DNA from: Fischerella sp. JS2 | GTDB lineage: Bacteria > Cyanobacteriota > Cyanobacteriia > Cyanobacteriales > Nostocaceae | NCBI RefSeq assembly: GCF_032393985.1 | Contig: NZ_CP135918.1 | Location: forward strand, 124,001 to 188,000 | DNA: 64,000 bases | Direction: 5' to 3' | Shown: in pieces, positions 1,524-4,726 of the stretch | Numbering within the stretch: position 1 is the stretch's first letter | Layout: each line of letters starts with the position of its first letter | The notes under the pieces: generated by a model | The model's input: the letters and a program-made list of their open reading frames with translations, nothing else | Database searches by the model: none | What the model was told of the DNA's origin: nothing | Position numbers and translations under genes: made by a program

Positions 1524-1646
1524 CTCTTTGATCGCCATAACATCAACACACCAATGACAAAACTTTGTGATGCTGTACTGTTACAAATTGTGTAAGACAT
1601 CGTGCTATTTTCTGAGTCCACCTGCACATGCGGGTGGTTTTTGTTG
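1524..1646 (+). ncRNA. Tandem unit 1 ending in an intrinsic terminator; candidate small RNA
   Basis: This ~123-bp unit repeats with a 150-bp offset as the next entry. It begins CTCTTTGATCGCC and ends in the hairpin 1618-1637 (CCACCTGCA / TGCGGGTGG arms, one G-T pair) followed by TTTTTGTT. It lies between two divergent genes, so the + strand terminator does not end any visible upstream gene. The simplest reading is a short independent transcript. I did not identify a known RNA family, and the promoter is not certain. Confidence 0.4.
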
Positions 1647-1673
1647 GCGATCTAGCCTTAGATGAGTCTATCG

Positions 1674-1797
1674 CTCTTTGATCGCCACAACATCAACACA
1701 CCAACGACAAATCTTTGTTACGTCATACTGCTAGAAATTTTGTAGGACATTATGCTCTTTTCCTGCGCCCACCTGCATATGCGGGTGGTTTTTGTTT
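1674..1797 (+). ncRNA. Tandem unit 2 ending in an intrinsic terminator; candidate small RNA
   Basis: This is the second copy of the unit at 1524-1646. The first ~37 bases are nearly identical, the middle differs more, and the end is again a hairpin (1769-1788) with a T-rich tail (TTTTTGTTT). The hairpin loop centre differs (CAT versus TAT) while the stem is kept, as expected for a structure under selection. It lies about 110 bp upstream of the nuclease-ParA gene, so it could alternatively be a leader or centromere-like repeat for that locus. Confidence 0.4.
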
Positions 1798-1831
1798 GCA
1801 ATGAGCGATCGCCCAGGAGACATGGCAAATC

Positions 1832-1901
1832 TTAAGTTACTTAATATACTAAGTATCAAGCTACTCTTGAGAGTAGCTCTGTGTTTGCCAAGGTAACTTA
1901 A
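1832..1901 (+). promoter_or_regulatory. Nested inverted repeats directly upstream of the nuclease-ParA start
   Basis: An outer 9-bp inverted repeat (TTAAGTTAC 1832-1840 / GTAACTTAA 1893-1901) encloses an inner 9-bp hairpin (AGCTACTCT 1859-1867 / AGAGTAGCT 1870-1878, 2-nt loop). The outer right arm reaches to within 5 bases of ATG 1907 and overlaps the likely ribosome binding site (AAGG near 1890). It could be an operator or a translational control hairpin; the sequence alone does not decide. Confidence 0.45.
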
Positions 1902-1906
1902 TTTTT

Positions 1907-3214
1907 ATGGATTATTCCCCAATAAAACAAGCACTAATAAACGTTCCAGAGAATGCACAAGAATCAACAGTCTGTAGCATATTTATCTCAGAGCTACTAA
2001 AAACTTTGGGTTTTGATGTAATGGAAACTGTTTGGCAGTTTAATACTGGGAACGGTGGAAATACTGTTGATTACGCTGTTCGCAAGAACTCAGATGGCGA
2101 TAGCTTCATCATAACCCAATCCAACCCCTACCTATTGTTGGAAGCAAAAGGCAGGAATATAAACCTTAGCTCAAATTCGGCACATTACAAGTCAGCTGTT
2201 TTCCAGATAAAACGTTATCTACTTGCCCCTAACTGCAAATCAGCTCAATGGGGAATTATTACCAACGCCAACCATATTCAGTTGTTTAGAAAACATGGCA
2301 AGGTTGTCCACCCTGCGCTTCCTTGTTTGGAAGTTACTCCAGACAACCTAGATAAAGTTGTCTCAACAATCAAGCACAAGATTGATTGTCCACAAAAAGC
2401 GTTAACTGTGGCAATCTATAATAACAAAGGCGGAGTAGGAAAAACTATTACTACAGTCAACTTAGCAGCAATTTTGGCAATGTTAGGAAAGCGATCGCTC
2501 ATTGTTGACTTTGATCCTAATCAGCAAGACCTAACTAACTCACTTGGTTTGAAATCAAAAGAAGATAGCTTATTTGCTTGGTTGATAAATAAAAGTAGTC
2601 CCGCACCTGATGGATTAGTAAATCCATGTAAAGTTTCTCCAAAAACAGGTACAGTATGGCAGTTTGACATTATTGCTAGTGATGAAAAACTTCAAAATTT
2701 GCCAGAAGACAAGCTGCTTCAACATATAAATCATGGCAGACTACGACAAGCCTTAGAACCATTCAAATTTGAATACGACTATATTTTGATTGACTCTCCG
2801 CCCAATTGGAGATTTTTTAGTAAAAGTGCGGTTTATGCAGCAGATGTAGTTTTGATTCCCACAAAACATAACAACATCTTTTCTTTGGAAAATGCTGCGA
2901 CTGCCATTAGACGTTTTGTCCCCCAAATTCAAAACGAGAGGAAAGACGGAGGGCCGATTGCTCTACCCATCTTTTACAATGGTAAGTCTATTACAGAAGC
3001 AGCAAGACTCAACGCAGAACAGGCAATAGACAAAATCATTGGAACAGCCAAAAAAGATAAAGTTCATCCTTTTGATCTCACACCATACTTTTATCCCAGA
3101 TCCACTCCAGCAAACATAGACCGCCACATTTTTTCCATACCAAGTTACGCACACATTGCAGGTGCTGCCTTTGATCGTATACCTGCTGCTTATAAAAAAA
3201 AGGGCGTTGCATAA
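1907..3214 (+). CDS. PD-(D/E)XK nuclease-like / ParA ATPase fusion, C-terminus replaced by IS insertion
   Basis: 435 residues. Residues ~1-160 resemble the N-terminal nuclease-like domain of type I restriction HsdR subunits: E19 in an early helix, VDYAV with D55, LLLEAKG with E79 and K81, then FQIKRYL. Residues ~166-420 are a ParA/MinD-type ATPase with deviant Walker A KGGVGKT (174-180), DFDPNQQ (~201-207) and Walker B YILIDSPPN (~292-300). ParA ATPases position DNA or protein cargo, usually with a ParB-like partner; here the partner is probably the gene at 4031. The last codons (Gly-Val-Ala-stop) come from the left end of the IS at 3203. With the IS removed, the frame would run 16 more codons to TAA at 4015-4017, giving ~448 residues ending 13 bp before the next gene. 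Whether the truncated protein works is unknown. The fusion with a nuclease-like domain is unusual for a plain partition ATPase. Confidence 0.8.
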   Translation: MDYSPIKQALINVPENAQESTVCSIFISELLKTLGFDVMETVWQFNTGNGGNTVDYAVRKNSDGDSFIITQSNPYLLLEAKGRNINLSSNSAHYKSAVFQIKRYLLAPNCKSAQWGIITNANHIQLFRKHGKVVHPALPCLEVTPDNLDKVVSTIKHKIDCPQKALTVAIYNNKGGVGKTITTVNLAAILAMLGKRSLIVDFDPNQQDLTNSLGLKSKEDSLFAWLINKSSPAPDGLVNPCKVSPKTGTVWQFDIIASDEKLQNLPEDKLLQHINHGRLRQALEPFKFEYDYILIDSPPNWRFFSKSAVYAADVVLIPTKHNNIFSLENAATAIRRFVPQIQNERKDGGPIALPIFYNGKSITEAARLNAEQAIDKIIGTAKKDKVHPFDLTPYFYPRSTPANIDRHIFSIPSYAHIAGAAFDRIPAAYKKKGVA

Positions 3215-3958
3215 TAGCGGTATGAATTGAGGTCAATTAATCATGGAATGTCCACGCTGTGGATCTTGTCATAACCGTAAGAATGGAAAGAAAAGAGGTA
3301 AACAGAATCACATTTGCTGTGATTGTGGTCGTCAATTCATTGATGTCTATAAACCACCCAGGGGCTACTCGGATGAAATCAAACAAGAATGCCTAAAAAT
3401 GTACGTCAATGGTATGGGATTTCGTGGAATTGAAAGGGTGAAAAACGTTCATCATACTACCATTATTCATTGGGTTAAACGAGTGGGTACACAATTGGCG
3501 GATACACCAAATTCAAAGGAAATTCCGCAGGTGGGAGAACTAGATGAATTAGAAACATTTATTGGTTCAAAAAAAATAAAATCTGGTTGTGGACGGCGGT
3601 AAATCACTTTACTCAAGGTATTCTTGCTTGGGTTTTAGGTGATCGTAGTTCGACTACTTTCCAACAGTTATGGAACATTGTCCAGTGTTGGCAGAGTTAT
3701 TTTTACGTCACAGATGGATACCCTGTTTACCCTTGTTTTGTTCCTGATGGTGACCAAATTGTGAGTAAGACCTACATGACACGAGTCGAAAATGAAAACA
3801 CAAGGCTTAGACATTATTTGGCTCGTCTTCATCGTAAAACTTTATGTTATTCCAAAACCGAGGAAATGCTGAGATACTCTGTTCGATTGTTATTGCACTA
3901 CCTCAAATATCGTTCTGTTCCCTTACCTGCCTAAAACATACCTTTATTCAGCAACGCC
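3203..3958 (+). mobile_element. IS1-family insertion sequence, complete, ~756 bp
   Basis: The ends are 22-bp imperfect inverted repeats, 3203-3224 and 3937-3958, matching at most positions (both read GGCGTTGC inward and end in GGTATG). The flanks AAAAAAAG (3195-3202) and AAAATAAG (3959-3966) match at 7 of 8 bases, fitting the 8-9 bp target duplications of IS1 with one later mutation. The size is close to the usual ~770 bp. The element carries two overlapping frames joined by a -1 shift. It sits at the 3' end of the nuclease-ParA gene, between it and its likely partner. Confidence 0.9.
3243..3934 (+). CDS. IS1-family transposase made by -1 frameshift (InsA/InsB-like frames)
   Basis: Frame 1 (3243-3602) encodes a zinc-finger/helix-turn-helix InsA-like part: MECPRCGSCHNRKNGKK with paired CxxC motifs, then RGYSDEIKQECLKMYVNGMG. 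Frame 2 (to 3934) encodes the catalytic InsB-like part, with VTDGYPVY and the VENENTRLRHYLARLHRKT block. The frames differ by -1. A run of eight A (3569-3576) lies where a -1 slip gives the expected junction GSKKNKIWLWTAVNHF. IS1 elements are known to make their transposase by such programmed slippage, so this is probably an intact gene and not a broken one. The catalytic acidic residues expected (D in ELDELETF, D in VTDGY, E in RVENENT) are present. The C-terminal part would not be made without the shift. Confidence 0.85.
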
Positions 3959-4030
3959 AAAATAAGACAGCTTATGAATATTATTTGGCACTAACGAAGG
4001 AATACTTTTTGCAATAAGAGGTTTAAAAAT

Positions 4031-4726
4031 ATGGGTGTAAGCAACGTTGGGAACTTAATGTGTCTTTACAGGCATGAAATTAATCCAGGTATAGGCACGG
4101 ATGCATCAGAGTTTCTGATCAAAGCAGCTGCGAGAGTGCTAGTTGAGTCGGGGGGTCGCAACTGGGTTCCAGTGATTGTTAAAGAAACAGGTGAAGACCA
4201 GTATGAAGTCATTGGTAATTCATTTGTTTATGCCATCGCTGAGGAAGCTAGTTTAGAAAAGGTATGGTGCGTTGTCACAGATTCCAGTGAGAAAACAATT
4301 GAGTTAACTAGGATTCTAACTGGTGATTTAATACCTAAAGTTAACTTGTCAACTGCAAGCAGGGACGAAATCCACGCGGCTTTGCAATACCTTATTGAAA
4401 AACCCAATAGTGAATTAGCAGGGGTAAAATTGGCGATCACGACCAATCGCCTTGAGGAAGCTCAACGCCAAGATTGGAAAAACTTTGAGCCGATCACAAA
4501 ATTAAAATGCGGCATAACTAAAGGAAAGAAACTGGATGCGCTTAAAGAAGTCTTTTATCTCACTCCTCAATCGACACCAGAAGTTGTAACACCAAAAGCA
4601 GCTAGTGAGGTCAATTTAAATACTTTGACACTTACCCAACTTAAGGATATGGCAAAAAAGCAAGGAATTCCTGGATTTGCTAGGAAGAAAAAACAAGAGT
4701 TAGTTGCTTTGCTATCGACAAGTTAA
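4031..4726 (+). CDS. ParB-like protein with C-terminal Rho-N/SAP-like motif
   Basis: 231 residues. The N-terminal half (about 25-110) resembles the ParB/Srx-type fold used in partition proteins: FLIKAAARVLVESGGRNWVPVIVKE, then YEVIGNSFVYAIAEEA. The last ~35 residues (LNTLTLTQLKDMAKKQGIPG then RKKKQELVALL) form a Rho termination factor N-terminal/SAP-like helix-extended-helix, often nucleic-acid binding. The start at ATG 4031 has AAGAGG about 9 bases upstream. Before the IS insertion it lay 13 bp after the nuclease-ParA stop, so the two were probably one operon; now the IS1 element separates them and may impose polarity. I infer a DNA-binding partner of the ParA fusion. The ParB-like assignment rests on motif resemblance only. 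Confidence 0.65.
   Translation: MGVSNVGNLMCLYRHEINPGIGTDASEFLIKAAARVLVESGGRNWVPVIVKETGEDQYEVIGNSFVYAIAEEASLEKVWCVVTDSSEKTIELTRILTGDLIPKVNLSTASRDEIHAALQYLIEKPNSELAGVKLAITTNRLEEAQRQDWKNFEPITKLKCGITKGKKLDALKEVFYLTPQSTPEVVTPKAASEVNLNTLTLTQLKDMAKKQGIPGFARKKKQELVALLSTS

Follow-up and report, generated by a model that had tools for sequence, protein, structure and literature searches.

What is a restriction-type nuclease domain doing on a partition ATPase? The question is raised by a locus in a 64,000-nucleotide stretch of the 7.02-Mb single-contig genome of Fischerella sp. JS2 (genome positions 124001-188000; hereafter the window), in which a gene for a nuclease-like domain fused in front of a ParA ATPase is followed, beyond an insertion sequence (IS), by a gene for a ParB-like partner. 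An initial annotation, made from the letters alone, delimited both reading frames exactly (435 and 231 amino acids, aa) and proposed that they form an undescribed two-gene module. No published description of the fusion was found in the open literature searched, and earlier mention elsewhere is possible. The results described here point to a real, widespread and apparently undescribed architecture, whose function is read from sequence and which has a fair chance of lying further from the known kinds of system.

The distribution of the fusion was determined by a search covering 386 genomes of the phylum, 129 of which make up the window's class (its own genome and those of the same family, order and class, minus f25, 57 small genomes). 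Fusions were accepted on P-loop and length together with a match to the nuclease profiles, and the 56 that passed fall into two classes, 38 in class I, which includes that of the window, and 18 in class II; L239, L252, L257, L258 and L288 failed the P-loop/length filter and stand outside the 56. Class I was found full-length in 37 of the 129 genomes, the window's own included (one, G357, has one internal stop), fragments (G078, G133, G145, G385) and divergent forms (among them G165 and G310) not being counted. The class II nuclease domain was detected in 63 of the 386 genomes at E 1e-14 or better, 62 of them within the 129 plus G013, and was not found in the window's own genome. An open frame of at least 449 aa, long enough for the fusion, is present in 57 of these 63, and the class II fusion itself was read in 18; the 20 second-tier match regions fetched comprised these 18 class II cases, a divergent class I form (L275) and L288. 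Class II shows an HsdR_N-type domain, then ParA, then usually a downstream ParB_N partner. The tree splits the two classes (99); that the fusion arose once among ParA proteins was not rejected (approximately unbiased test, p 0.617). The two-gene picture drawn initially is that of class I; class II had been missed. Five of the six short class II frames were fetched (G300, G286, G060, G121 and G013; not G080): ParA continues in another frame in four of them, the rest of ParA was not seen in G060, and no separate nuclease gene was found among the five. At these loci (L332-L336) the class II frame is broken at or within the ParA half, which probably reflects decay or sequencing errors. Beside the class II fusion at L269, L270, L271, L273, L276, L286 and L332, a separate ParA-type gene of 294-314 aa was observed, on the opposite strand in six of the seven loci.

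As judged from profile matches and conserved motifs, the N-terminal domain is a type I restriction-like (HsdR_N) PD-(D/E)XK domain with its catalytic residues kept, in agreement with the earlier reading of D55, E79 and K81 and of such a fold in residues 1-165. When the whole fusion protein was scanned, its N-terminal half matched only HSDR_N (0.043); scanned alone, the domain matched HSDR_N_2 at 9.4e-5 (22.9 bits, short of the 25 set as curated cut-off). Among 25 class I relatives (E up to 1), HSDR_N_2 was matched in 22 (best 1e-7), HSDR_N in 13, MmeI_N in six, PDDEXK_9 in two and NucS_C in one, all of which we take to be nuclease families; 11 further families matched one or two members each, apparently by chance. 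The class II domain gave HSDR_N_2 in 15 of 15 scanned at the same limit (best 9.6e-7), and profile comparison shows the class I and class II nuclease domains to be homologous (9e-15). Against plasmid records, the window's domain matched five, namely two Nostoc plasmids, two HsdR N-terminal-domain proteins and one N-6 methylase, and the class II domain matched 15, for 13 of which the annotation reads HsdR_N, type I restriction endonuclease or N-6 methylase. E19, D55, E79 and K81 are kept together in 55 of the 56 fusions (E19 and E79 in all 56, D55 and K81 in 55 each) and, with Q100, are invariant in a 25-row alignment (A1) from which the aberrant G157 copy was excluded. That copy, without the catalytic D and K, is L022 and is entered as L232 in the residue count over the 56 fusions; it is omitted from A1 and A3 together with L014-L016 and L018-L020, near-copies of L013, and the class II alignment A6 holds 15 of the 18 domains. 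The nuclease half is under purifying selection, the ratio of nonsynonymous to synonymous substitution rates (dN/dS) being 0.10-0.17 in five more distant pairs.

The remainder of the fusion is a ParA-type ATPase. It matches AAA_31 at 4.7e-31 over residues 167-343, its closest PDB chains are ParA/Soj (to 2e-17), and the deviant Walker A motif with its signature lysine, the A' motif and the B motif are present. K174, K179, D201, D203 and D296 are invariant in the 25 rows of A1; over the 56 fusions, K179 and D296 are retained in every one and D201 in 54.

The partner had been described as ParB-like with a Rho-N/SAP-type tail; the tail was confirmed, and the similarity to ParB proved weak and without the GERR motif. 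The window's partner matches Rho_N at 1.3e-7 and ParB_N at only 0.0067. ParB_N was listed for all 17 class I partners scanned (E up to 1; best 7.8e-5) and Rho_N in 16 of them, and class II partners gave ParB_N in 15 of 15 scanned (best 6.4e-10), with tails that are partly of the helix-hairpin-helix (HhH) type (HHH_6 in seven of 15). Partners of the two classes are homologous (hhalign 4.6e-8). The boxes by which ParB handles cytidine triphosphate (CTP) are named GERR (P-motif) and ENxQR, and neither was found by eye in the partners of either class; at the place of GERR, class I has x-N-x-F (N63 and F65 invariant in A2, which holds 17 of the 31 aligned partners, near-copies and long or short ones being excluded) and most class II partners have G-x-F/L-E-Y-Y (A7, 15 of 16 class II partners). 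No convincing helix-turn-helix (HTH) family was found in class I partners, the only HTH match among the families listed being HTH_CHD6-9 (0.19) in one of 17, nor in class II partners among the best 25 of 72 families. With GERR missing and no HTH seen, the partners are named ParB_N-like here, not ParB CTPases. Their tail is of a type that would bind nucleic acids generally. In the partners at L238/L057, L228, L231 and L234 the middle domain is repeated, and their length is 264-306 aa. Just downstream of a class II pair lies another ParB_N-like protein, of ~370 aa (G099:C1:813373-813735), similar frames of 369-379 aa being seen in G039, G195, G203, G336 and G354. By eye, a protein on a virus-like contig (L267, 9593-10663) apparently contains two ParB_N-like copies resembling the partner, and sits among what look like phage structural genes.

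Fusion and partner form a true two-gene module, as first proposed. The partner is directly downstream of 32 of the 38 class I fusions, and in 24 of the 32 the two genes overlap, by exactly 4 bp in 14 cases, with gaps of 12-18 bp between the genes in the closest relatives of the window; a frame of 225-309 aa follows the class II fusion in 16 of 18 cases. The six class I fusions without an adjacent partner comprise the window's own, where the IS lies between the genes, and five others considered below. Distances between fusions correlate with those between their partners in class I (r=0.93 for 32 pairs; r=0.76 for 28 core pairs, a value as high being reached in 0 of 1000 permutations), a correlation to which shared ancestry contributes. 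A full-length-alignment scan of genome contigs returned generic ParA P-loops, none of the 80 record titles being cyanobacterial, and among 159 contig loci other than L141 a ParA-type P-loop frame was seen in 155 and a nuclease-profile match (E 0.01) in none, in a search that is non-exhaustive outside cyanobacteria. A Shewanella plasmid match, starting from residue 75, was rejected as an annotated unfused ParA gene of 777 bases.

The genomic setting differs between the classes and lineages. Class II is chromosomal where seen, and the class I pair lies on the main chromosome in at least 16 of 37 genomes, its neighbours in the loci read being mostly ordinary genes that differ between lineages. 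In Nostoc sp. UHCC 0870, class I is found on two mobilizable plasmids and a third plasmid has a divergent form; canonical ParA/ParB genes are present on each of the three, and ParM/StbA on two. One virus-like 58-kb contig bears the pair. Within one genus, G127 and G072 have the pair, with other small genes, flanked by msrA and a methyltransferase gene, and in G155 these two genes lie ~200 bp apart without the pair; the methyltransferase orthologue is present in six of seven genus members tested, with msrA adjoining in one (G155) and no msrA match within the ~1.5 kb fetched in the other five. The horizontal origin suggested in the initial annotation stands in so far as class I is patchy and in part horizontal, and the sign of horizontal spread in the tree is modest.

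We tentatively propose that the pair is a nuclease-armed ParA/ParB-like module, in which a ParA-positioned nuclease would act under a ParB-like adaptor and class I would police foreign or rival DNA. ATP-bound fusion dimers would load on DNA; the adaptor, held on DNA through its Rho_N/SAP or HhH tail, would contact the ParA half and trigger or release it, thereby setting where and when the nuclease cuts. Class I may then be an accessory system that polices plasmids, phage DNA and other foreign or rival DNA, and class II a domesticated DNA-maintenance form that may serve chromosome maintenance. Policing appears likeliest for class I because the catalytic residues are conserved, purifying selection acts on the nuclease half and the pair leads an accessory, partly plasmid-borne life.

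Several known systems share parts of this architecture. ParABS (Soj/Spo0J, SopAB) has the same deviant Walker A ParA ATPase and an adjoining downstream partner with a ParB_N-like domain, but in the pair the ParA N-terminus is of nuclease type, the partner has no GERR motif and no HTH that could be seen, and neither parS nor linkage to dnaN was found. The N-terminal domain of HsdR in type I restriction (HSDR_N, HSDR_N_2) is likewise of the PD-(D/E)XK type with E, D and ExK, and with a Q that is matched in 36 of 38 class I domains, whereas the pair joins this domain to a ParA ATPase, not to a helicase motor, and no HsdM or HsdS was seen beside the pair in the window. The plasmid defence system Wadjet/MksBEFG also combines a DNA-organising ATPase with a nuclease and may work alike; its ATPase is of the SMC (structural maintenance of chromosomes) type, its nuclease is different, and we know of no genes that it shares with the pair. 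McdAB, which positions carboxysomes, is similar as a cyanobacterial ParA-type ATPase with its own adaptor, but McdA is not known to carry a nuclease domain, nor McdB to be ParB_N-like.

Three other roles have to be weighed against the proposed policing module. It is conceivable, if rather doubtful, that the pair serves chromosome maintenance or segregation, organising the copies in polyploid cyanobacteria without classical ParABS while the nuclease resolves or trims dimers, broken ends or surplus copies. Class II, whose domain occurs in nearly half of the 129 genomes, fits this role best; of 28 genomes tested, 11 have a canonical ParB above the curated cut-off, just three of them (G000, G014, G306) on the largest contig, and four of the 28 (G095, G312, G251, G306) yield the class II partner itself as a ParB match below that cut-off. 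On the other hand, class II went undetected in about half of the 129, the window's genome included, and its distances to dnaN, an assumed origin marker, are uniform (median 0.27 of the chromosome; Kolmogorov-Smirnov (KS) p 0.92; 21 genomes), two chromosome lengths being rounded; with these distances unskewed, origin-linked chromosome partition was rejected. Class I is not significantly skewed either (KS p 0.20, 16 genomes), and a slight excess of copies near dnaN (one-sided p 0.10, n=16; p 0.05, n=13, without the same-genus repeats G095, G247 and G089) is not relied on. Shared k-mers upstream of either class barely exceed shuffles, and no multi-copy parS-like site was found upstream of either class or, genome-wide, in the window's genome.

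That the pair partitions plasmids or other elements, the PD-(D/E)XK fold being a DNA-binding or autoregulatory domain only, is unlikely; the model for such a role is the HTH of type Ia ParA proteins, which serves DNA binding and autoregulation. The pair does occur on plasmids, one copy has lost catalytic residues and kept its partner, and the window shares with three close relatives (L222, L241, L243) an upstream palindrome, TACTTA-N6-TAAGTA, with 0-1 mismatch. The palindrome was not found in L221, the closest relative of the window, and is not enriched in the window's genome (37 forward versus 53 in the reversed control); the retention of E, D, E and K in all fusions except one also argues against a binding-only domain. 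Ordinary plasmid partition with known parS sites, which the initial annotation had held out as the mundane outcome, was discarded as an exclusive role, since the copies on the Nostoc plasmids sit beside canonical ParA/ParB (with ParM in two of three) and many others are chromosomal. A toxin-antitoxin-like addiction module, in which the fusion would be a toxic nuclease restrained by the partner, is more doubtful still and quite improbable: the adjoining and often overlapping genes, the mobile-like spread and neighbouring small genes in G072 would suit it, but five fusions stand without an adjacent partner, the window's fusion has been split from its partner by the IS with the nuclease frame still open, and the partner tails are of a DNA-binding type.

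Several observations weigh against the policing module itself. Two AlphaFold models, built from two-sequence alignments, reached mean confidence scores (pLDDT) of 41 and 42; the nuclease-domain model (pLDDT 41), in which the order of elements is compatible with an alpha-beta-beta-beta-alpha-beta fold, is too poor for the fold to be judged from it, and support for the fold comes from the sequence profiles. The G157 copy has lost D55 and K81 and retains its partner; Q100, kept in 36 of 38 class I domains, is kept in only two of 18 in class II; and for three near-copy pairs from a single genus the nuclease half gives dN/dS values of 0.35-0.51. Five class I fusions (L224, L240, L246-L248) have no adjacent partner. 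The classes occur together in 25 genomes (Fisher p 0.006, phylogeny ignored), with nothing that points to exclusion between them, and the class I tree requires 18 family changes against a minimum of 15 for 16 families, a modest excess. On a 12.6-kb Pseudanabaena plasmid a distant version is the only annotated ParA-like gene, in a table that may be incomplete, which fits partition. A defence-related setting, raised at the outset, was not demonstrated with PADLOC, in which 109 proteins within 2.7 kb of the pair and 120 beyond 5 kb looked alike, with no clear defence enrichment. Both sets came from the same 23 loci, leaving out L229, L247-L248, L255-L256 and L259 as well as the loci on plasmids or short contigs, and were compared on the best 25 of 129 (near) and the best 25 of 113 (far) families, protein counts not included. 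Among the families listed, the near set contains a type II restriction enzyme and methylase (probably L223) and a type IV match, and the far set contains methylases and no restriction enzyme, which leaves room for a weak enrichment of defence genes near the pair. Neither ordinary partition nor defence is established.

In the window (Table 1), the IS and the upstream tandem units noted initially were both confirmed. The IS carries a DDE_Tnp_IS1 transposase domain (1.1e-18) between terminal repeats of 22 nucleotides that are 82% complementary. Its inner part (query 3215-3945) has 40 near-identical places in the genome among the matches listed, 32 of them at full score, the window copy included in both counts; because of these many near-identical places its arrival looks recent, as in a recent burst. 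The element separates the fusion gene from the partner gene and trims the 3' end of the former. Since the frame of relatives, followed by eye, runs on past the IS, about 18 residues are missing from the C-terminal end of the window's fusion; the ParA described as complete falls slightly short of that, and the module in the window is probably impaired by the insertion. The upstream units are 83-86% alike and were not listed by TRF. In each, a CCACCTGC/GCGGGTGG hairpin precedes a run of T; no Rfam match to them was found, and they could be tandem small-RNA genes or terminators.

Table 1. Features of the locus in the Fischerella sp. JS2 window (window coordinates).
Feature	Position	Strand	Description
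Two ~150-bp tandem units	1524..1802	.	Terminator-like hairpin in each
Candidate operator palindrome TACTTA-N6-TAAGTA	1838..1855	+	At -69 of fusion gene
Nuclease-ParA fusion gene	1907..3214	+	435 aa; 3' end clipped by IS
HsdR_N-type PD-(D/E)XK domain (predicted)	1907..2395	+	Residues 1-163; E19, D55, E79, K81, Q100
ParA/Soj-type ATPase half	2402..3211	+	KGGVGKT, D201, D296
IS1-type insertion	3203..3958	+	Two transposase frames; 22-nt terminal inverted repeats (82%)
Partner gene, 231 aa	4031..4726	+	ParB_N-like domain, middle domain, Rho_N/SAP-like tail
ParB_N-like stretch of partner	4169..4303	+	Residues 47-91; without GERR motif
Rho_N/SAP-like tail of partner	4616..4708	+	Residues 196-226

Taken across both classes, the pair may represent a cyanobacteria-specific nuclease-armed ParA/ParB-like machine of a kind undescribed so far, chromosomal in class II and mobile in class I, which could sort or patrol DNA in polyploid cells without classical ParABS by cutting molecules that fail a ParB-like licence; this we regard as possible and hold provisionally. 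With its ParB-like partner, this widespread fusion of ParA and a restriction-type nuclease offers a concrete candidate that can be deleted. Should class I prove to restrict plasmids or phages, it would also bear on the genetics of cyanobacteria, in which strain engineering is limited by barriers to uptake.

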